Of a stretch of DNA of 64,000 nucleotides, positions 7,159 through 47,795 are shown in pieces. The stretch lies in contig NZ_BMPM01000001.1 in assembly GCF_014647595.1 (NCBI RefSeq), positions 496,001 to 560,000 on the forward strand, given 5' to 3'. Source of the DNA: Paenarthrobacter histidinolovorans. GTDB lineage: Bacteria > Actinomycetota > Actinomycetes > Actinomycetales > Micrococcaceae. Position 1 is the stretch's first letter. The number at the start of each line of letters is the position of its first letter. The notes beneath the pieces are model-generated. The model was given only the letters and a program-made list of their open reading frames with translations, did not search any database and was not told the DNA's origin. The position numbers were made by a program, and so were the translations under genes.

Positions 7159-8931
7159 TCAGTAGACGCGCACGACGGCGGCGCTGGCGCCGGGGAGGGT
7201 CAGCGTCTCCTCGTCAAGGGCTGCTTCGGGGTCGGTAGCCAGCAACAGGGAACCCTTCAGGGGTGTGGCAAGTGCTTCATCCCCGAGGTTGCACACCACG
7301 CGGACGTTGCCGCGGGACATCTGCAGCCAGTGTTCCTCGTCGTCGAATTCCACGGAGGTATCTCCAAAGCCGCCGTCCACGAGCTCAGGCGTGTTCCGAC
7401 GCAGCTGTGCTAAATCCTTATACAGCTGGAGCAGTCGGGCGTGGTCTCCCTCGCTGGCCTCTTCCCACTTGAGCTTGGAGCGTTGGAAAGTCCCGGGATC
7501 CTGGGGGTCGGGGACAACGGCGGGGTCCCAACCCATCCGTTCGAACTCCTTGATCCGTCCCTCTGCGGTGGCCTTGCCCAGCTCCGGCTCCGGGTGGGAG
7601 GTGAAGAACTGCCACGGCGTTGAAGCACCGAACTCCTCCCCCATGAACAGCATGGGGGTGAAGGGCGAGGTCATGGTCAGCACGGCACCCACGGCCAGCT
7701 TGCCGTACGACAGCGTTGCCGTGAGCCGGTCACCAATGGCCCGGTTTCCAATTTGGTCGTGGTTTTGCAGGCAGACCACCAAAGCCGATGGGTGCGCGAG
7801 GTCGTGCCGGATTGACCGACCATGATGGCGACCCCGGAAGCTCGAGTAGCTGCCGTCGTGGAAGAAGCCGTGTTCCAGGACTTTGGCCAGCACGGACAGC
7901 GATTCGAAGTCCGAGTAATAGCCGGTAGTTTCTCCGCTGAGGTTGACATGAACGGCATGGTGGAAGTCGTCGCTCCACTGCCCTTCGAGCCCATAGCCGT
8001 TGTCCTTGCGGGGATAAATGAGGCGTGGGTTGTTCAGGTCCGATTCTGCGATCAGGGTTTTCGGTATCCCCGTCCCGGATTCGATCTGGTCAGCCAGCGC
8101 ACCAAAATCCTCAAGGATGTGCACGGCCCGTTCATCCCGGAGTGCGTGGACGGCATCGAGCCGGAGTCCGTCCACGTGGTAGTCACGGAGCCACATCGCC
8201 GCATTTTCCAGAATGTAGCGGCGCACGTCATCGGACCCCGGGCCGTCAAGGTTCACTGAGTCGCCCCAGGTGTTGCCCTCCCCCGATTTCAGGTAGGGAC
8301 CGAACTTTGGCAGGTAGTTTCCGCTCGGACCGAGGTGGTTGTAGACCACGTCCTGGATGACACCGAGCCCCGCAGCATGTGCGGCGTCCACGAACCGTTG
8401 GTAGGCCGCCGGCCCACCGTAGGGCTCATGCACGGCGTACCAAAGGACGCCGTCGTAGCCCCAGTTATGGACGCCGTTGAATCCGTTGACCGGCAGGAGC
8501 TCAATGAAATCAATGCCGAGGTCCACCAGATAGTCCAGTTTTCCAGCGGCGGCATCCAGTGTGCCCTCCGGAGTGAAGGTGCCCAGGTGCAGCTCGTAGA
8601 TGACAGAGCCTTTCAGGCTCCGTCCCTTCCAGCCGGCGTCCTTCCATTCGTGGACGGACGGGTCGAACGTGGAAGACAAGCCATGGACGCCTTCTGGTTG
8701 GCGCCGCGAACGCGGATCAGGGAATGGACCTTCTCCGTCCACGAGGTAGCCGTACGGCACGCCGTCGGCTTTCCCTGCCGTTGCGTCAGCCGGGGCGCGC
8801 CACCAACCTTGGGCAGCGGCGTCGTCATATTGCTCCATGACGTATTCGTGGCCTCCGGCCACCAGCCGAACGGTCTTTGCGTTCGGCGCCCAGACATCAA
8901 AGAGATTCTTTCCAGCAGCGTGCTTCAGCAT
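7159..8931 (-). CDS. treZ: Malto-oligosyltrehalose trehalohydrolase
   Basis: A 590-residue GH13 enzyme that releases free trehalose from the maltooligosyl-trehalose made by TreY. An N-terminal beta-sandwich ([14 protein letters not shown], residues 11-24) precedes the barrel. The catalytic residues are Asp259 in [10 protein letters not shown], Glu296 in LIAESDLN and Asp392 in [10 protein letters not shown]. The length is typical of TreZ. ATG 8931 follows AGGGGAAC. It is the last gene of the glgX-treY-treZ operon, 52 nt after treY, so the operon carries all steps from glycogen branch removal to trehalose. Confidence 0.93.
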
Positions 8932-39236: not shown

Positions 39237-40064
39237 TTACGGGATGGGGACAGGCACGACGCCGAGCGGCGCCAATTGCTCCGCGCCTCCATCGGGGGCG
39301 GACAGGACCCAGATGCCCTTTTCGTGCACTGCTACCGAATGCTCCCACTGGCAGGAACGCTTTCCGTCAGTGGTGACTACTGTCCAGTCGTCGTCGAGGG
39401 TGGCAGTTTCGATGTCGCCGCGAACCAGCATGGGCTCGATGGCAAGGCACAGCCCCGGGCGGATCTTGGGACCGCGGTGGCTGGTCCGGTAGTTCAGGAC
39501 ATCCGGGGCCATGTGCATTTCGGAACCGATGCCGTGGCCGACGTAGTCCTCCAGGATGCCCAGGGGCTTGCCGGGGACCGAGGAAACGTAGTCATCGATT
39601 GCGTTACCGATGTCACCCACGAACTTGCCCTTGGCCAAGGCGGCGATGCCCCTCCACATGGCGGCCTCGGTGACATCCGAAAGCCGCTGGTCCTCCGGGT
39701 CCGCGGTGCCCACGATCACTGTCCGCGCCGAGTCGGAGTGCCAGCCATCCACAATGCAGCCGCCGTCGATGGAGATGATGTCTCCGTCTTGCAGGACACG
39801 GCCACCGGGTATGCCATGGACTACTTCCTCGTTGACGGAGGCGCAGATGGTCGCGGGGAATCCGTGGTATCCGAGGAAGTTGGACTTGGCTCCTGCGTCA
39901 TTGAGGACCGCGGCAAAGACGTCGTCCAGGTCCTTGGTAGTGACACCGGGCCTGGCAGCCGCAACGGCAGCATCGAGTGCCCTGCTCAGGACAAGCCCGG
40001 CCTGGCGCATCGTACGCATCTGCTCGTTGTTCTTATATTCAATGCGGGGCTGACCGAACGCCAT
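39237..40064 (-). CDS. map: Methionine aminopeptidase, type I
   Basis: A 275-residue metallopeptidase that removes the initiator Met from nascent proteins. Metal ligands are visible in SIDGGCIVDGWHSDSA (two Asp regions), GHGIGSEMHMAP (His), LAIEPMLV (Glu) and WEHSVAV (Glu). ATG 40064 follows AGAGGAG; the frame extends 18 codons further without similarity. It lies only 32 nt after the OleD-like gene and on the same strand, so it is probably transcribed from the biosynthetic operon or a promoter inside it. Confidence 0.96.
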   Translation of the reverse strand: MAFGQPRIEYKNNEQMRTMRQAGLVLSRALDAAVAAARPGVTTKDLDDVFAAVLNDAGAKSNFLGYHGFPATICASVNEEVVHGIPGGRVLQDGDIISIDGGCIVDGWHSDSARTVIVGTADPEDQRLSDVTEAAMWRGIAALAKGKFVGDIGNAIDDYVSSVPGKPLGILEDYVGHGIGSEMHMAPDVLNYRTSHRGPKIRPGLCLAIEPMLVRGDIETATLDDDWTVVTTDGKRSCQWEHSVAVHEKGIWVLSAPDGGAEQLAPLGVVPVPIP

Positions 40065-40096
40065 GTTCTCCTCTGGAAGGTTGCTGTTGGGACCGA

Positions 40097-41008
40097 TCAG
40101 GCCCCGTGCTCCAACCATTTTCCCGCATCCGCGACTGTGGTCGAAATTGGCTCGATTCCCAGCTCTCCGCGCAGCCGGTCCAAACAGTACGTCCGCTGCT
40201 TCCCCACCTGGCTGACGGCGTAGCGGGTAATCTTCGGAACACGGCCGGTAACCCGTGAGGCTGCCTCCGAAACGGCCGCGAGCGCCATGGCTGCAGGCTC
40301 CGGAAGATAGGTGACAGGGACGTCGCTGTGGCCTGAAACGTCAAGCACCTGCCGCAGCACTGCCCCCAACTCCACAGGCCGGGCATCGCCCACGTTCACG
40401 GCACCGCGCACCGTCGACTGGCAGGCGGCCAGTATGGCACGCGTCAGGTTGTCCACGTGCGTCAGTTGATGCTTCACCCCGGCGTGTCCGATGCTCAGCA
40501 GCCGCCCTCCACGAATGTTGCCGACGAGACGGGGCAACAGTGTCCGATCTCCCGGCCCGTAAACGGCGTGGGGGCGCAGTGCCAGGGCATTACCGTGTCT
40601 CCTCGCTTCGACGTCGGCGAGCGCCTTGCTGCGTCCGTAGGCGTTCAGGTGCCTCGCAGCCACCTCTTCCTCAGCACGGTCCACGCACGGTTCCCACCAG
40701 GGATAGACGCTGGAGCTTGAGATGTACACCAGGCGTGTCCCTGCGAATGCTTCAGCAACGGCCCTGGTCCCTTCGACGTTTGCCCGGTGAAAGACGGCAG
40801 TGTCTCCCCAGTCGGCCACATGGGCGCCGGCGTGGACAACCGCATCCACGTGCGGAATACGAGCGGGTGGCAGACCGGCCAGGTCCCAGTAACTCAAGCC
40901 CTTCCCCTGACGTCGGGCATACCGGACGACCTCCCAGCCCCGGGCTTCGGCAGCGTTGGCCACGGCCCCACCGATGAACCCCGTGGCGCCGGTTACAGCG
41001 ATTCTCAT
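40097..41008 (-). CDS. OleD-like NAD(P)-dependent epimerase/reductase
   Basis: A 303-residue short-chain dehydrogenase of the extended, 3-beta-HSD-like type. The Rossmann motif is VTGATGFIGGAV (residues 5-16), and the catalytic Tyr124-x3-Lys128 lies in AYGRSKAL with Ser residues at 97-100. VVHAGAHVADWGDTAVFHRANVEGT and LRPHAVYGPGDRTLLPRL match OleD of olefin clusters, as I recall it from Xanthomonas, where OleD reduces the 2-alkyl-3-ketoacid made by OleA to the 3-hydroxyacid. Its ATG overlaps the OleC-like stop as ATGA. It is the last gene of the five-gene operon. Function is inferred from homology and context. Confidence 0.75.
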   Translation of the reverse strand: MRIAVTGATGFIGGAVANAAEARGWEVVRYARRQGKGLSYWDLAGLPPARIPHVDAVVHAGAHVADWGDTAVFHRANVEGTRAVAEAFAGTRLVYISSSSVYPWWEPCVDRAEEEVAARHLNAYGRSKALADVEARRHGNALALRPHAVYGPGDRTLLPRLVGNIRGGRLLSIGHAGVKHQLTHVDNLTRAILAACQSTVRGAVNVGDARPVELGAVLRQVLDVSGHSDVPVTYLPEPAAMALAAVSEAASRVTGRVPKITRYAVSQVGKQRTYCLDRLRGELGIEPISTTVADAGKWLEHGA

Positions 41009-42726
41009 GCGTCCGCCCCTGGGTCCCGCCGCGCGGCAAACATCCCACGCAGGGCCACCCGGTCAGGCTTCCGGTGCCTGCCGGAGGAAGGGATGGATTC
41101 CAGGATTTCGATGTGGTCCGGAAGGGCGGACTCATCGATGATCATCGGCAATTCCCTGGCCAACCGGGACTTCAGCGCAGCAGCGGGCCCGCCGGGTTCA
41201 GGGACCACCGCCAGCCATACCGCTTCATCTCCGATGCTGTCCGGTACGCCCACCATGACGGCATTCCGGACCCCTTGCACAGCTGCGATGACCGGCTCAT
41301 ACAACGCCGGGTAGATGTTTGTCTTACCCCGGATGATCATGTCCTTCTTTCGTCCGATCATGACCAGCCTGGGCGCACCGGTTCCTCCGTGGTCCAGCCG
41401 TACCAGATCACCAGTGGCGTGCTCCACCATCGGGTCCTCGCCCAAGTAGCCGAGGCACATGTTCGGCCCGCGGGCGAACAGCTCATGGTCGACTGCTACG
41501 CGGATCCCGACGGCGGGCAGCGGCTCTCCGAGGAAGTCGCCTTCACCGCTGCCATCGGGCCCGGTGAACTCTGCTTCGGCCCCGGATGCGAAGGCCAGTT
41601 TCTCCCGGCCATCGGCAATGGCGATGGGCAGTACCTCGGTCATGCCGTAGATGAGCTTGAACCCGACTCCGGGCATGAGCCTCATTGCCCGTTCAAGGAA
41701 GGGTGCCAGGATGGGCGCGGCCCCCAGCATCACCGTCCTCAGCGTCGCGGGCAGGGTGACGGAACCGTCTTCGATGGCATCCAGGATGGGTGCCAGTTGT
41801 GAGGGCACCAGGAAAAGGTGGGTGGCGGCGTCGTACGACGCTTCCTTCCCGGCAACGGCGCCCAACTCGCCTGCCAGGCGTAGCGGGTCAATGTGTGCCG
41901 AGAAACCATAACCGGGCATGGTCCAGTGGGCACCGGCGATCAAGGCGGGAAGGCCCATCATGAGCTGCTCGGAGTGGATCCGGTCGCCCTCACCGAAGCT
42001 GCATCGCGTCGATAACTGCCCGAAGCCTGCGGCCAGGGATCCCCTCGTATGAATGACCCCTTTGGGTGCGCCCGTGGTGCCGGAGGTGAAGATGATCACC
42101 GCCTCCTGTTCGGTCACTGTTTCCGTGGGTCCGGCGGAGTCCTGCCCCTGGGGAAGCGGTGCCGCAAGCCCTTTGACCGGTGAGGCACCGCGGGGTACGC
42201 CCGGGAGCCACGGCCCGGAGTAGTAGTGGCGGACGTCCATTGCCCCGTAGTCCGGGAGGAGCAGGCCGCGGCCGCGTGCGATGGGGCGAAGCGGGCTCTT
42301 GGCACTGATGGCATACAGAAGTGATTCCGATGCGGCCCAGCGCGGGGCAGCGAGTTCTGCCCGGTCGCGGAAAAGCGCAGGCCCTATGCCGGGATCGATG
42401 AACACCACGGAGCCACCCGCCCTCACGGCTCCGAGTGCCAGAATAAACGCTTCGGGGCTGGGCCGGACCGAGAAGAGCATCCGCTCCCCTGTCCCGAATC
42501 CGTCATCCTGTAAACGCCGGGCCGTGGCCTCAATGCCGTCCACCAACGCGCGGTACGTGATGGTACGGCCGGGCCGGACGCAGTCGTTTCCCCATCGCGC
42601 CCACGGAGGCTGTCTTTTGCCCGGCGCCGTGATGGCGGGACGGTCGGGAACGCGATCCGCCGAGGCATAGACTGCAGTGATCAAATCCCGGGTCACCAAG
42701 GATTGCCCAGGTGTTTCATCAGGCAT
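41005..42726 (-). CDS. OleC-like AMP-forming synthetase (ANL superfamily)
   Basis: A 573-residue adenylate-forming enzyme. Core motifs are FTSGTTGAPKG (213-223), YGMTE (360-364), TGD (438-440) and the C-terminal catalytic Lys553 in RHRKPDRVAL. In olefin and beta-lactone pathways OleC activates a 3-hydroxyacid as its adenylate and closes it to a beta-lactone. Those enzymes look like acyl-CoA ligases, so a plain ligase role remains possible. No hydrolase domain is fused, unlike the OleBC fusion of Micrococcus. GGAG lies 7 nt before the ATG, which overlaps the P450 stop by 8 nt. Confidence 0.75.
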   Translation of the reverse strand: MPDETPGQSLVTRDLITAVYASADRVPDRPAITAPGKRQPPWARWGNDCVRPGRTITYRALVDGIEATARRLQDDGFGTGERMLFSVRPSPEAFILALGAVRAGGSVVFIDPGIGPALFRDRAELAAPRWAASESLLYAISAKSPLRPIARGRGLLLPDYGAMDVRHYYSGPWLPGVPRGASPVKGLAAPLPQGQDSAGPTETVTEQEAVIIFTSGTTGAPKGVIHTRGSLAAGFGQLSTRCSFGEGDRIHSEQLMMGLPALIAGAHWTMPGYGFSAHIDPLRLAGELGAVAGKEASYDAATHLFLVPSQLAPILDAIEDGSVTLPATLRTVMLGAAPILAPFLERAMRLMPGVGFKLIYGMTEVLPIAIADGREKLAFASGAEAEFTGPDGSGEGDFLGEPLPAVGIRVAVDHELFARGPNMCLGYLGEDPMVEHATGDLVRLDHGGTGAPRLVMIGRKKDMIIRGKTNIYPALYEPVIAAVQGVRNAVMVGVPDSIGDEAVWLAVVPEPGGPAAALKSRLARELPMIIDESALPDHIEILESIPSSGRHRKPDRVALRGMFAARRDPGADA

Positions 42727-43969
42727 GGGCCAGCTCCAACTTCCGGTACCCGGGAATCAGCACTCCCCTGCTGACCTGGCGGGCAGCAATGTGCCAGGGC
42801 CGCTGTGCATACAGGTCCAGCAGCAGCTCCAGCGTCGTATTGATTTCTGCCATGGCAAGCGGCATGCCAATACAGAAATGCGGTCCGGCACCGAACCACA
42901 GCTGACGTGCCTGCTGTGGTGTTGCCTGCGCCGGATCAAAGCCACCCAGGCTCTTGGCGGCATGGATGGTTGAGAGCAGGATCCTGTCCCCGGCGAGGAC
43001 CTTCGTGCCGCCTAGTGATCCATCAACCACTGCGTCCCGCAGCATCATCGGTGAGGGAACCGTGAAGCGCAAGGCCTCGTTGACTGCGGCCGGAACAGCG
43101 GACCGGTCCGCGGCCAGTTCACCGAGCCGTCCACTGTCGGCAAGCAACGCCACCAGCCTTGGCACGAACGACACCAGGGTTTCTGTGCCCACCATCACGA
43201 AAGCACTGATGATGCCCATGGCCTCGTCCTCGGACATGCCGAGTTCGCGGAGCCTGCCGGGGAAGGTATCGGGGTCGCTTTCCCTGTAGGCCGCCCGGAC
43301 TGGTCCGGCCAGCACGTCGACGGCGGATCGCCCCTTGGCCACTTGCCTTGCGGTGAGCGTCGGTCGGCCCAGGCGGACAAGCGACGAAATGGAGGACCCC
43401 AGGTCGAAGAGCTCCCTGTCTGCCAGCCTTCCCGGGGCATGTTCGGGAACCCCCAGCAGGCGCGAAATGACGCCGCCGGCCAGTTCTTTCACGCAGTCCA
43501 CCAGGTCCACGCGGCCGCGCGCTTCCAGTTCTTCGTGCACGCGCGACTTCAGCGCGGCCGCTGCCGGTTCCACGATGCCTTCCACGGAGCGGGGCGTGAA
43601 GAGGTCACCCAAACGGCGTCGCAGTAGCCGGTGTTCCTCACCGTCCATGTTCACCAGCGCCTTGGGCCCTACAACGGGAGTCCACAATGCACCCGAGCCT
43701 GATGGGCCGTTCTTGACGTAGGCGTCGTGACTCATCAGGACCTCGCGTACCAGTCCCGCTTCGCTGACCAGTACACCCAGCCCGGGGATGCGAAGCACCG
43801 GACGGAGTCCGCCCAGTCCGCGGATGATGGGATACAACACCGGGTGGGCTCCGAGATGGACACGGCGCTCCCAGCGTTCCGCAGTGTTCTGTTGGCGGTT
43901 TGCCGCCGGGTTCGCCGGAATCTTGCGCGCCGCGGCCCGCGCGCTGGTCTCCTGGAATCCGCGCGTCAC
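42719..43969 (-). CDS. Cytochrome P450
   Basis: A 416-residue soluble bacterial-type P450. The haem ligand is Cys366 in WFGAGPHFCIGMPLA, the ExxR pair is Glu298/Arg301 in NEALRF, and the I-helix has VGTETLVSFV. Between ExxR and the Cys there are only 67 residues, and the usual NRDP...FDPxRF part is shortened to AAKSLGGFDPAQ. GTG 43969 is chosen because it overlaps the glycosyltransferase stop as GTGA; an upstream start would run deep into that gene. A hydroxylation or other oxidation of the cluster product is likely. No ferredoxin gene is nearby. Confidence 0.88.
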   Translation of the reverse strand: MTRGFQETSARAAARKIPANPAANRQQNTAERWERRVHLGAHPVLYPIIRGLGGLRPVLRIPGLGVLVSEAGLVREVLMSHDAYVKNGPSGSGALWTPVVGPKALVNMDGEEHRLLRRRLGDLFTPRSVEGIVEPAAAALKSRVHEELEARGRVDLVDCVKELAGGVISRLLGVPEHAPGRLADRELFDLGSSISSLVRLGRPTLTARQVAKGRSAVDVLAGPVRAAYRESDPDTFPGRLRELGMSEDEAMGIISAFVMVGTETLVSFVPRLVALLADSGRLGELAADRSAVPAAVNEALRFTVPSPMMLRDAVVDGSLGGTKVLAGDRILLSTIHAAKSLGGFDPAQATPQQARQLWFGAGPHFCIGMPLAMAEINTTLELLLDLYAQRPWHIAARQVSRGVLIPGYRKLELAHA

Positions 43970-44760
43970 CGGATATCCACGTGTTCGGGCCGGTAGCGGT
44001 GGTCCGCATACCAGGCCAGCGTGTTCTTCAGCCCCCACGCCTTCACCCGGCGGGAGGAACCAAACACCACAACATCGCGTCTGAGGGCGTAGTTCCGCGT
44101 CAGCTTCCGTACCCGGTTGGACAAGGCCCGGTCTTCATGGAGGTCCTCGATTTTGCTTCTGGGGAAACCGCCTGAGCGCTGGTACATGTCGGCAGTGATG
44201 GCCATGTTGCAACCGGGGAGCATCTGATATGGACCCAAGTACCCCTCACCCTTGTTGCCGGGCCGGATCCGGCCGAAGAACGAAGCTACCTCGACGGCCA
44301 ACAGCATCATGAGCCGTTCACGGGAGGTAATGCCCTCGTCCTCGCGGGGATTCAGTTGTCCGGCGATGAGCTCCAGGCCGTCTTTAAATGCAGCCATGAT
44401 CCGCGCGGTCCAGTCAGGCGCGGCCAGGCAGTCGGTGTCGGTGCGGGCCAGCCACCGCGCACCGTGTTCCACGCCAAAGCGCATACCGGAATCAGCTGCC
44501 GCACCCGTGCCCTTCTGGCTTTCGTGAACCAACCTGATGTCCATGCGCGGATGTTCCGCCGCAAAGCCGGCCACGATGTCGCAGCTGCGGTCCGTGGAGC
44601 CGTTATCCACTACTACCACGGTGAAGTCCGGAAAAGATTGTGCTGCCAAGGAGTCCAGTGCCTGCCGTACCAGCTTCTCTTCATTGAGCATCGGCATGGC
44701 CACGCACAAGGACCGGGTGGGTGCCGTGCTTGATAGCCTGTCATGCAACTCCGCGTTCAT
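43966..44760 (-). CDS. Family 2 glycosyltransferase
   Basis: A 264-residue GT-A fold glycosyltransferase. The nucleotide-binding strand is VVVVDNGSTDRSC (48-60), the DxD motif is Asp108-Thr-Asp110 in RTDTDC, and the catalytic acidic pair lies in HEDRALSNRVRK (Glu209-Asp210). I see no membrane helix. The acceptor cannot be told; its place between an OleA-like and a P450 gene suggests a lipid-derived intermediate. It overlaps the upstream OleA-like gene by 4 nt (ATGA) and the P450 gene by 4 nt (GTGA). Confidence 0.82.
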   Translation of the reverse strand: MNAELHDRLSSTAPTRSLCVAMPMLNEEKLVRQALDSLAAQSFPDFTVVVVDNGSTDRSCDIVAGFAAEHPRMDIRLVHESQKGTGAAADSGMRFGVEHGARWLARTDTDCLAAPDWTARIMAAFKDGLELIAGQLNPREDEGITSRERLMMLLAVEVASFFGRIRPGNKGEGYLGPYQMLPGCNMAITADMYQRSGGFPRSKIEDLHEDRALSNRVRKLTRNYALRRDVVVFGSSRRVKAWGLKNTLAWYADHRYRPEHVDIR

Positions 44761-45800
44761 AGCCGCACCACCGCCATGCCCAGGCTCACGCCGCCACCCA
44801 AACCGACCAACGCCACAAGGTCACCGGGACCAGCCCTGCCACTGTCCACGGCAAGCTTCAATTGCAGGGGAAGGCTGACAGAGGCGAGGTTGCCAAAGTC
44901 CTCAACGGAATGAACCAGCAGTTCCGGAGGAACGCCGGCTCCTTCGGCGAAAATCTGCCGGTAGGGTGCGCTGACCTGATGCACGCAGACCACGGCAAAA
45001 TCCGTCCATGCGAGGTGCATTTCCGCGAGCGTTTCATCAAGGATGTCCGAACCGAGGTCCAGGAACGCGTCCTTGAGCTTTTCCCCGTCCATGCTGAAAT
45101 AGCTGGCCTCGGGATCACGCGGGAACGCCGAACCTCCCGCCGCCAAGGTACCTACTGACCAATGGCTGCTTCGCGCCGTAAAGCCCATGGCCAGGATTCC
45201 GGCCGCCCCGCCCCCAGCTGAGCCAGGCTCAACCGCGGCTTCCAGCAACACTGCTGCCCCGCCGTCGCTCATGGTGTACCCGGGAAAGCTGGAGGCGAAC
45301 GTGGGGAAGTCCGGTACCGACCACCGCACCGCCCGGGAGGGCGACTCCCCCGTGACCACCAGAACCCTCGCGTAACGCCCTCCGGCGATCAACGCATCGG
45401 CAACCTCCATACCGTTGAGGAAACTGTTACAGGCGTTCTTGACGTCCATCACCGGGCACGAAAGTCCCAGTTTCGCCGCCACCATGTGTCCTGTGGCCGG
45501 TTCAACCATGTCCTGGCTGGCAGAGGCGAAGACCAGCAGATCCACGTCAGGTGCCTGCAGTCCACATTCGGCCAGGACTTTGGCAGCAGCGTTGGCCGCC
45601 AGATCGGAGGCCTGCTCCGTCGCGGACATGACACTCCGGGAACGGATCCCCGTGACCCGGCCGATGAGGCCTTTCGGGACCCGGAACCCGGGACTGGAAT
45701 CAGCGATGCGGCGTTCGACGGCGGCAGTGTCCAGCCGCGTGGGCGGCAGGTAAACCTCAAGCCCCGAAATCCGGCTACGTCCCGACAGAGCTGTCTGCAT
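44757..45800 (-). CDS. OleA-like thiolase-fold condensing enzyme (3-oxoacyl-ACP synthase III family)
   Basis: A 347-residue thiolase-superfamily enzyme. The catalytic set is Cys124 in DVKNACNSFLNGM, His274 in VHQVSAPY and Asn304 in FGNLASVSLP. Glu100 in DMVEPATG aligns with Glu117 of Xanthomonas OleA, the base for head-to-head condensation of two acyl-CoAs; FabH lacks it. VTGIRSRS and the ASDLAANAA stretch also follow OleA. ATG 45800 has only a GGGGGA before it. It heads a five-gene coupled operon, 31 nt after the adk terminator. A FabH-like role in making a single chain is the main alternative. Confidence 0.82.
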   Translation of the reverse strand: MQTALSGRSRISGLEVYLPPTRLDTAAVERRIADSSPGFRVPKGLIGRVTGIRSRSVMSATEQASDLAANAAAKVLAECGLQAPDVDLLVFASASQDMVEPATGHMVAAKLGLSCPVMDVKNACNSFLNGMEVADALIAGGRYARVLVVTGESPSRAVRWSVPDFPTFASSFPGYTMSDGGAAVLLEAAVEPGSAGGGAAGILAMGFTARSSHWSVGTLAAGGSAFPRDPEASYFSMDGEKLKDAFLDLGSDILDETLAEMHLAWTDFAVVCVHQVSAPYRQIFAEGAGVPPELLVHSVEDFGNLASVSLPLQLKLAVDSGRAGPGDLVALVGLGGGVSLGMAVVRL

Positions 45801-45831: not shown

Positions 45832-45871
45832 AAAAAGGGTGTGTCCCGCACCTATGGTACGGGACACACCC
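45832..45871 (-). terminator. Rho-independent terminator between adk and the biosynthetic operon
   Basis: A perfect 12-bp stem, GGGTGTGTCCCG with CGGGACACACCC (45837-45848 and 45860-45871), is followed on the minus strand by TTTTT. It ends 31 nt before the OleA-like start codon. Confidence 0.9.
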
Positions 45872-45909
45872 TTCACTCAAGTTCCGGTTGCCCGGCTATG
45901 TGGAAAACC

Positions 45910-46488
45910 CTAGACAGCCTTGGCCGACTCGATAGCGGTCAGCACGCGGTCGGTAACTTCATCGATACCGCCGATGCCATCCACCTTGGTGAGGATGCCG
46001 CGTTCGGCGTACTTCGCCACAACGGCTTCGGTCTGCTCGTGGTAGAGGTCGAGACGGTGACGAATCACGGTCTCGTTGTCGTCCGAGCGGCCGGTCTCCT
46101 TGGCACGGCCCAAAAGCCGGGCAACCAGTTCTTCATCGTCCGCAGTCAGCTGGAGCACGACGTCGAGCTCCTGCTCACCTTCAGCGAGGATCTGGTCCAG
46201 GTAGTCAACCTGCGCAGTGGTGCGCGGGTAACCGTCCAGGAGGAAGCCGTTCTCGACGTCGCTCTGGCTCAGGCGGTCACGAACCATGTTGTTCGTAACG
46301 CTGTCCGGAACGAAATCGCCGGCATCCATGTACTTCTTGGCTTCGATGCCCAAGGGGGTTTCGCCCTTGACGTTGGCACGGAAGATGTCGCCGGTGGAGA
46401 TGGCGACTACGCCGAGGCGCTCGGAAATCCGCTCAGCCTGTGTACCCTTGCCCGAACCGGGAGGTCCAATGATCAGCATTCTCGTCAT
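45910..46488 (-). CDS. adk: Adenylate kinase
   Basis: A 192-residue kinase that interconverts ATP + AMP and 2 ADP. The P-loop is IIGPPGSGKGTQAERI, the AMP site shows GFLLDGYPRTTAQVDYL, and the LID is short, as in actinobacterial enzymes without the zinc insert. The start overlaps the secY stop as ATGA, so it is coupled to secY. A strong terminator follows the stop, closing the secY-adk unit. In most relatives map would come next. Confidence 0.96.
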   Translation of the reverse strand: MTRMLIIGPPGSGKGTQAERISERLGVVAISTGDIFRANVKGETPLGIEAKKYMDAGDFVPDSVTNNMVRDRLSQSDVENGFLLDGYPRTTAQVDYLDQILAEGEQELDVVLQLTADDEELVARLLGRAKETGRSDDNETVIRHRLDLYHEQTEAVVAKYAERGILTKVDGIGGIDEVTDRVLTAIESAKAV

Positions 46489-47795
46489 CGCAAAAGCCCT
46501 TCGTAGTGACGTTGTTGTAGCTGCGCATCAATCTGCTTGACGGTCTCCAGGCCAACACCCACCATGATCAGGATTGACGTGCCACCGAACGGGAAGTTCT
46601 GGTTGGCATTGATCAGGACGAGTGCAACCAGCGGAATCAACGCCACGAAGCCCAGGTAGAGGGCTCCAGGCAAAGTAATCCTGGAGAGCACGTACTGCAG
46701 GTAGTCCGCGGTCGGTTTACCCGCCCGGATGCCCGGAATGAACCCGCCGTACTTCTTCATGTTGTCCGACACTTCTTCAGGGTTGAAGGTGATGGCTACG
46801 TAGAAGTAGGTGAAGAACACGATCATGGCGAAGTAAAGCGCCATGTAGATGGGATGGTCGCCACGGGTGAGGTTGTTGTTGATCCACTCAACCCACGGGG
46901 CCATCTGCTCCCCTGGCTTCGGCTGGTTGAACTGCGAAATCAAGCCGGGCAGGTACAGCATGGAGGAAGCGAAGATGACAGGCACGACGCCGGCCATGTT
47001 CACCTTGATGGGAATGTAGGTGCTGGTGCCGCCCACGGTGCGGCGACCGATCATGCGCTTGGCATACTGCACCGGGACACGGCGCTGCGACTGCTCAACG
47101 AAGACCACGAGGGCCACGGTAAGCAGGCCGATGGCAAGAACGATGAAGAACGTTCCCGGGCCCTTGGTCTCCCAGATGGAACCAAGTGAGCGGGGGAAGC
47201 CGGCAGCGATGGAGGTGAAGATCAGCAGCGACATGCCGTTGCCGACGCCGCGCTCGGTGACGAGCTCGCCCATCCACATGATCAAGCCCGTGCCCGCTGT
47301 CAACGTGATGATGATCAGGAGGGTGGTGATGATGCTTTCATCGGGGATGATCGGCAGGTTGCAGCCAGGAAGCAACTGACCGGAACGGGCCAAGGACACC
47401 AGGGTGGTGGCGTTCAACAGGCCCAGTGCGATGGTGAGGTACCGGGTGTACTGCGTCAGCTTGGACTGGCCCGATGAGCCCTCCTCGTACAACTGCTGGA
47501 ACCGGGGAATAACCACCCGGAGCAACTGCACGATGATGCTCGCCGTGATGTAGGGCATGATGCCCAGGGCAAAGATCGAGACCTGCAGCAACGCGCCGCC
47601 GCTGAACAAGTTCACCAGCTGGTAGATGCCCTGCGAGGTGTCACCGTTGTTCAAGCATTGCTGGACATTCTGGTAGTTCACACCAGGCGAGGGGATGAAA
47701 GCTCCCAAGCGGAAGATTGTGATGATTCCCAGCGTGAACAACAACTTGCGTCGCAAATCAGGCGTCCGAAACGCCCGGCCGAATGCGCTTAGCAA
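46485..47795 (-). CDS. secY: Protein translocase subunit SecY
   Basis: A 436-residue, ten-helix channel subunit of the Sec translocon. It begins LSAFGRAFRTPDLRRKLLFTLGII and shows the plug region PGVNYQNV, INVNMAGVVPVIFA-like KVNMAGVVPVIFASSML, and the cytoplasmic loop PEEVSDNMKKYGGFIPGIRAG. The start is the rare codon TTG (47795), supported by AGGAGG 4 nt upstream. A terminator after rplO and a promoter-like pair upstream indicate that secY-adk is a separate unit from the spc operon. Confidence 0.96.
   Translation of the reverse strand: MLSAFGRAFRTPDLRRKLLFTLGIITIFRLGAFIPSPGVNYQNVQQCLNNGDTSQGIYQLVNLFSGGALLQVSIFALGIMPYITASIIVQLLRVVIPRFQQLYEEGSSGQSKLTQYTRYLTIALGLLNATTLVSLARSGQLLPGCNLPIIPDESIITTLLIIITLTAGTGLIMWMGELVTERGVGNGMSLLIFTSIAAGFPRSLGSIWETKGPGTFFIVLAIGLLTVALVVFVEQSQRRVPVQYAKRMIGRRTVGGTSTYIPIKVNMAGVVPVIFASSMLYLPGLISQFNQPKPGEQMAPWVEWINNNLTRGDHPIYMALYFAMIVFFTYFYVAITFNPEEVSDNMKKYGGFIPGIRAGKPTADYLQYVLSRITLPGALYLGFVALIPLVALVLINANQNFPFGGTSILIMVGVGLETVKQIDAQLQQRHYEGLLR

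Follow-up and report, generated by a model that had tools for sequence, protein, structure and literature searches.

The closest described system is a cluster of Actinoplanes atraurantiacus, in which an OleA, a glycosyltransferase, an OleC, a cytochrome P450 and an OleD are encoded together (PMC7064751, mBio 2020). According to the excerpted text of that paper, the product is predicted to be a glycosylated beta-lactone, on the argument that the genome contains no oleB, and the OleA is active on a p-nitrophenyl ester. Canonical ole clusters are reported from Micrococcaceae in the excerpted text of PMC7158056. Here we analyse a stretch of 64,000 nucleotides from Paenarthrobacter histidinolovorans (contig NZ_BMPM01000001.1, positions 496,001 to 560,000; hereafter the window), which carries on its minus strand an operon of five genes, designated A (condensing enzyme), GT (glycosyltransferase), P450 (cytochrome P450), C (adenylating enzyme) and D (reductase). 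The initial annotation had regarded this gene set as one without a known pathway. Full novelty of the set is rejected, because PMC7064751 in its excerpted part describes it in A. atraurantiacus with a predicted product, which makes the operon a variant of a system with one earlier description. We consider it likely that the operon encodes a complete five-enzyme glycolipid pathway started by an OleA-type condensation, whether or not a lactone is formed. That C makes no beta-lactone in this pathway, and instead hands its acyl group on, is a more tentative proposal.

The five genes had been placed at 45800-40097 with overlaps of 4, 4, 8 and 4 nt, and this layout is borne out. A and GT overlap by 4 nt (44757-44760), as do GT and P450 (43966-43969) if GTG 43969 is the start within a longer open reading frame (ORF) opening at 44038, while the overlaps of P450 with C and of C with D are 8 nt (42719-42726) and 4 nt (41005-41008). 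A likely starts with ATG at its upper end, 45800; the GTG at 45851, which would give a longer A, sits inside a perfect hairpin. With script-chosen starts in 32 other operon loci of the same genus, the C/D overlap was 4 nt in 31 and the P450/C overlap 8 or 11 nt in 28, with 4 nt in 20 for A/GT and in 14 for GT/P450. That the genes are translated as one unit, as had been claimed along with the overlaps, may fairly be read from the overlaps alone. ACP_syn_III, Glycos_transf_2, p450, AMP-binding and Epimerase were all found above their curated Pfam cut-offs, and the ORFs and Pfam matches revealed no oleB within the operon. Compared with five same-genus relatives, the ratio of non-synonymous to synonymous substitution rates (dN/dS) was 0.05-0.07 for A, 0.05-0.08 for GT, 0.07-0.12 for P450, 0.06-0.10 for C and 0.09-0.15 for D; at 0.05-0.15, purifying selection keeps all five genes.

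Among 206 same-genus (Arthrobacter/Paenarthrobacter) genomes, GT is present in 33, and in all 33 the five genes stand in the same order between adk and map (A and C in L079, P450 in L084 and adk in L083 aligned only partially), so that the arrangement is not due to chance. Pairwise distances between the five proteins correlate with those of secY, adk and map (Spearman 0.73-0.82 over 528 pairs, which are non-independent and carry no attached probability), which would be expected of an operon that for the most part moves together with its locus. A scan of GTDB with a GT alignment gave 271 relatives, and the following locus counts rest on the best 80. These comprise 51 loci with the A-GT-P450-C-D arrangement, which we call type I, 27 loci of Nocardia and Segniliparus with the same GT and C adjacent, which we call type II, and two incomplete loci on short contigs (L192, L196) that were set aside. 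The check that had been put forward for the operon, a five-gene order conserved across actinomycetes, thus gave a positive result in 51 of these 80 loci. Type I loci belong to Micrococcaceae (17), Thermomonosporaceae (13), Streptomycetaceae (10), Pseudonocardiaceae (9) and Microbacteriaceae (1), with one unplaced; outside Micrococcaceae the order is found in 34 of 63 loci (Streptomyces, Lentzea, Actinomadura, Pseudonocardia and others), and the adk-map placement is that of the 17 Arthrobacter/Paenarthrobacter loci among the 51. Apart from a paralogue of C (an ORF of L194, 30% identity, common to 32 loci), no further gene from six reference loci was common to more than 15 of 36 other type I loci. 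Upstream ORFs are common to up to 15 of these, the closest ones being lineage-bound (Actinomadura, Streptomyces).

In an even draw of the class, GT is present in 23 of 394 genomes. Ten longer regions from this draw showed A-GT-C-P450-D in six cases, A-GT-C-P450 with no D found in one, A-GT-C-GT-P450-D in one and A-GT-C alone in two. The gene order of A. atraurantiacus thus occurs in seven genomes (six with D and one with no D found), where C is of the same clade as that of the window. In the two genomes with A-GT-C alone (G471, G581), another GT copy is found at a different place, next to P450 and D. The module can therefore split, with GT doubled, either within one cluster or over two places. 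Two GT copies, as A-GT-C plus GT-P450-D, were seen in L307, in L211/L230 of G471 and in L209/L231 of G581. A member of another family of the order holds A-GT-P450-C with no D found (L029 of G043, about 7530-8298), where GT reads in two frames through a frameshift or an assembly error and the flanks resemble ilvD and ilvB by eye.

In regard to the condensing enzyme, the description of A as OleA-like holds for its residues and fails for its membership of the canonical OleA clade. The OleA signature Glu117-Pro is present in all 43 type I A proteins (E100 in A of the window, counted from ATG 45800) and in all 9 canonical OleA proteins, while the Glu is found in none of 18 FabH proteins; Cys and His are kept in all 43 type I A and Asn in 42. 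In the excerpted text of PMC7064751 this Glu is the catalytic base, essential in X. campestris OleA, and all but two of the OleA proteins considered there have it followed by Pro. A tree of 62 rows was built with 19 of the 43 type I and 7 of the 20 type II A proteins, the duplicate match L235_nlt_A3 being dropped from both tree and residue counts. Type I A forms its own clade (100/99), which includes A of L236 from Actinomadura meyerae, and separate clades are formed by canonical OleA (100/99), NltA with type II A (100/100) and the 18 FabH rows (100/100). Clustering of A with FabH, which had been named as the result that would tell against an OleA-like enzyme, was, strictly taken, not seen: the FabH clade excludes A. 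Type I A nevertheless connects to the FabH part of the tree (95/89), a placement that comes with a warning about long branches. The predicted structure of A (confidence score pLDDT 88.7) is nearest to X. campestris OleA (Z 40.3, 2.5 Å over 326 residues), which fills rows 1-11 of the ranking at Z 39.7-40.3, ahead of the first FabH-annotated chains at 38.9 and 38.4; a lead of about 1-2 Z is weak evidence for OleA over FabH. The OleA pattern EPxx[AS]x(14,18)DxxNACL (PMC7158056, excerpted text) is not matched by A of the window, EPATG...DVKNACN, in which Gly replaces Ala/Ser and Asn replaces Leu, the latter Asn being present in 43 of 43 type I A. At the locus of A. meyerae (L201/L236), the type I-like A is accompanied by genes of the OleC and OleD types and by a partial oleB-like match, a mixed lineage that may link the two pathways.

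The label OleC-like, given earlier to C, is weakened. C scores 128.7 bits on the PRK09274 OleC model (cut-off 478) and 113.3 on a long-chain coenzyme A (CoA) ligase model, compared with 360.5 and 152.8 bits for the canonical OleBC of the same genome, and for the type I C of L141 the CoA ligase model leads (148.4 vs 119.2). In a first tree with 19 of 43 type I and 8 of 22 type II rows, C proteins of both types form one clade (100/99) and OleC with NltC-type proteins another (100/99). An extended tree with nine added rows from A-GT-C arrangements (L312, a different gene, was left out, and the three 'fad' rows were a subset of ten) keeps separate clades at 99 and 98 (SH-aLRT only). The split of C plus OleC/NltC from CoA ligases has only 90/61 in the first tree and 18 in the extended one. 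Further ANL-superfamily proteins from the genome of the window were included in another tree, from which L295 and L301 were left out for length; its reduced form, also lacking L293, L300 and L302 with very long branches, has the two clades at 100/100 and 99/98. Motifs follow the same division, since the CoA-ligase hinge residues Asp, Asn, Tyr and Pro are present in 43 of 43 type I C, 22 of 22 type II C and 10 of 10 CoA-ligase rows, while none of the four occurs in the 4 NltC-type rows and only one Pro among the two OleC rows. KDM..R..NIYPGL is found in all nine C proteins read from A-GT-C arrangements, and the P-loop is SGTTG in C vs GSTGP-type in the OleC/NltC rows printed. The C-terminal RH..KI of six reference rows is absent from the window, which has RHRKPDR, one residue shorter (ten of 65 type I and II rows were displayed for this comparison). 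We therefore do not file C as OleC, on clade and motif, and retain it as probably the sister of the OleC/NltC clade. From the same motif and clade we infer that C may be a ligase still carrying out the second half-reaction.

The remaining three proteins agree with their families. GT has the GT-A fold, DxD and a catalytic base expected of family 2, and both DxD and HED are kept at all 51 loci; its predicted structure points to the general GT-A fold only, the top matches being the carbohydrate-acceptor GT2 enzymes WrtF, chondroitin polymerase and TarS. P450 has the haem Cys, ExxR and the acid-alcohol pair, and in 53 other loci the haem Cys was kept in 53, the ExxR Glu in 52 and Arg in 53, and Gly-Thr-Glu-Thr in 53. 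YxxxK and GxxGxxG of D are each found in 50 of 51 loci. The best family match of D is NF042422 OleD (109.5 bits, below its 580-bit cut-off), a cut-off that the canonical OleD of the same genome (288.5 bits) also fails to reach.

GT and C also occur together in type II loci. An NltA-like gene (like that of L140) is present in 23 of the 27, and seven of these placed in a tree group with NltA-type proteins. An NltB-like gene, like the next one of L140, is present in 25 of the 27; where it was compared, in two loci, it shares 42-51% identity with the degenerate member of the nlt pair. As type I and Nocardia loci share GT-C, GT and C appear to travel together and to serve two kinds of condensing enzyme. 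A PapA-type acyltransferase was detected by Pfam in two loci scanned, with homologues in 22 of the 27 type II loci (L140 counted), as might be expected if an acylated sugar lipid is made. Type II loci are not the nocardiolactone cluster itself, since OleC/OleD-type C and D genes lie at another locus in the Nocardia genomes (four of four Nocardia genomes, among 10 genomes examined). A separate A1-A2-C-D locus can thus occur in type II genomes; in three of the four Nocardia genomes, all four regions inspected (L233, L234, L235, L237) have two OleA-like genes, and we take these loci to be nlt from its gene set.

Every reaction of the pathway proposed here is putative, as are the sequence of steps, the identity of the sugar, the length of the chains and the final product. 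In it, A would condense two fatty acyl-CoAs into a 2-alkyl-3-keto acid by an OleA-type non-decarboxylative Claisen condensation, and D would reduce this to a 2-alkyl-3-hydroxy acid. P450 would hydroxylate a chain and GT would place a sugar onto a hydroxyl. C would adenylate a carboxylate and, because the thioester-type hinge is kept, would most likely transfer the acyl group to CoA, a sugar or another acceptor, with no four-membered lactone formed. The oxidised, glycosylated condensed lipid suggested in the initial annotation appears likely. Rather speculatively, such operons could represent a third OleA-started branch beside olefins and beta-lactones, in which GT and C are a portable finishing module that works with either a single OleA-type enzyme or NltA/NltB pairs and converts mycolate-like 2-alkyl-3-hydroxy acids into sugar lipids, with C as the transferring ligase.

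Several points weigh against this proposal. The profile scores of A are ambiguous (169.9 bits on the OleA-type and 157.5 on the FabH-type model), and in two relatives they are reversed (156.1 vs 164.4 and 154.4 vs 164.0); the score of 169.9 is also below the PRK09258 cut-off of 285 bits, while the canonical OleA of the same genome reaches 460.2. With nine other ANL enzymes from the genome of the window included, the C clade is sister to OleC/NltC at 99/98, a sisterhood that did not emerge until three very divergent rows were removed. C would thus be the nearest sampled relative of beta-lactone synthetases, so lactone closure is conceivable, and the CoA-ligase hinge is a motif rather than an assay. 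No type I enzyme is, to our knowledge, reported to have been assayed. In the excerpted text of PMC7064751, purified A. atraurantiacus OleA was without Claisen activity, with little protein available.

The published prediction of PMC7064751 for the same five-domain set, as far as its excerpted text goes, corresponds to C as a beta-lactone synthetase and a hydroxylated, glycosylated beta-lactone as product. The sisterhood of C with OleC/NltC and the lack of oleB in the window operon speak for it, yet C lies outside the OleC/NltC clade and has kept the CoA-ligase hinge and the SGTTG P-loop. The argument from a missing oleB is moreover weaker for this operon, because an oleBC fusion exists elsewhere in the same genome (L088). 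Altogether we regard a beta-lactone as possible and somewhat doubtful. The hinge of C would also suit a different order of steps, in which C acts upstream and turns a (hydroxy) fatty acid into the CoA thioester used by A, the keto acid made by A decarboxylates to a long-chain ketone, D reduces the ketone to a secondary alcohol and GT glycosylates it. Ketones do form from OleA products, and the adjacency of GT and C in Nocardia and in A-GT-C arrangements fits such a scheme. However, D is matched best by a 2-alkyl-3-oxoalkanoate reductase family, whose substrate is the acid, and this order of steps seems unlikely.

If, on the other hand, A were a FabH-type ketosynthase extending one chain, the product would be an ordinary modified fatty acid. 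The 95/89 join to the FabH side and the nearly equal score on FabH models would agree with this, but that join carries the long-branch warning, the FabH rows group at 100/100 to the exclusion of A, Glu-Pro is found in 43 of 43 A compared with Glu in 0 of 18 FabH, and one member of the A clade sits beside ole genes (Actinomadura meyerae). We therefore consider an ordinary fatty acid improbable, and prefer an OleA-type condensation followed by acyl transfer through C.

Matches to Pfam and NCBIfam models show that the operon is wedged between secY-adk and map (Table 1). In 20 of 25 same-genus genomes, inspected at the best adk match, map follows adk directly. Additional copies of adk are present in many same-genus genomes, with as many as five strong matches (G016, G020), and some copies are 84-97% identical to adk of the window. 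The hairpin that separates adk from A folds at -46.1 kcal/mol (z -5.2) and has a counterpart, a stem with a T-rich tail, at the same place in 31 of 32 other same-genus operon loci, and GTCCCGTACCAT with matching stem changes recurs in most operon loci of the genus, L087 excepted. A similar hairpin occurs at this place in some operon-free genomes (L093, L111 and, in a close form, L095). It is not a genome-wide repeat, as the palindrome is single-copy, with one match in the genome. Only 33 nt separate the hairpin from the ATG of A, and a promoter scan found no promoter, with a tool whose terminator scan missed this hairpin. The operon may be transcribed by read-through, or from a promoter or operator overlapping the palindrome.

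At the other end, ATG 40064 is probably the start of map rather than 40118, because its ribosome-binding site and start are common to the operon-free L093. A GCGGGAAAAT-type stretch found upstream of map in the operon-free L093, L095 and L096 is overlapped in the window by the final codons of D (40064-40160), and the promoter of map may therefore lie inside D. The adk-map gap of operon-free G023 (L093) contains a stretch of 91 bp with 83.5% identity to the end of D and the map leader, L095 has a weaker match (73% over 74 bp), and the other 18 operon-free loci gave no match at E 1e-3. We do not claim loss of the operon in L093, where the stretch could be either a remnant of D or a map promoter overlaid by the end of D.

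Table 1. Features of the operon and its flanks in the window
Feature	Coordinates	Strand	Basis and remarks
secY, upstream flank	46485..47795	-	TIGR00967 438 bits (cut-off 253.6)
adk, upstream flank	45910..46488	-	Pfam ADK and NCBIfam adenylate kinase models above cut-off
19-pair perfect hairpin with T-tract between adk and A, terminator- or operator-like	45834..45874	-	sequence, fold
A, OleA-type condensing enzyme, thiolase fold, 347 aa	44757..45800	-	ACP_syn_III; likely ATG 45800
GT, family 2 glycosyltransferase, 264 aa	43966..44760	-	PF00535 72.3 bits
P450, cytochrome P450	42719..43969	-	PF00067 50.5 bits; start probably GTG 43969
C, ANL-superfamily adenylating enzyme, 573 aa	41005..42726	-	PF00501 111.8 bits
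D, OleD-like SDR (short-chain dehydrogenase/reductase), 303 aa	40097..41008	-	best NCBIfam match oxyalk_red_OleD 109.5 bits
map, methionine aminopeptidase, downstream flank	39237..40064	-	TIGR00500 259.9 bits

If the proposed pathway is correct, actinomycetes of at least four orders would make a compound class of which, like the pathway's product, we found no report in the open-licence literature, and the sole prediction published for the product would have to be revised. Through the Nocardia variant, condensing enzymes of the nocardiolactone type would be connected with glycolipids. The Paenarthrobacter form would offer a clean test case in a benign genus of soil bacteria, with five genes, no extra conserved neighbours and close relatives that naturally lack the operon.

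Compared with the A. atraurantiacus cluster, as given in the excerpted published description, the window operon has the same five protein kinds, lacks oleB, and likewise begins with OleA and the glycosyltransferase and ends with OleD; unlike it, P450 and C are swapped, and the product there is a predicted one. Type II loci have GT 59-63% and C 43-50% identical to those of the window, with NltA/NltB-like condensing genes in place of the type I A and with a P450 that, where found, lies on the opposite strand and is 29-32% identical. The same genome carries, at a separate place (L088, 7284-12054 of G000:C3), a canonical oleA, oleBC fusion and oleD. This locus shares with the operon a condensing enzyme, an adenylating enzyme and an SDR reductase, but it has OleB and lacks GT and P450. 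Over the aligned parts, A is 27%, C 25% and D 31% identical between the two loci, and their A and C proteins fall in separate clades. Canonical oleA was not found at E 1e-40 in three of five operon-bearing genomes (of 37 in the genus), too few to interpret. The nocardiolactone/lipstatin type resembles the window operon in its OleA-type condensation, in having C and D and in lacking oleB. The window operon has one condensing gene, with no second one conserved in type I loci, whereas the nocardiolactone/lipstatin type employs a condensing pair of A1 and a degenerate A2, together with a C that belongs to the OleC clade.

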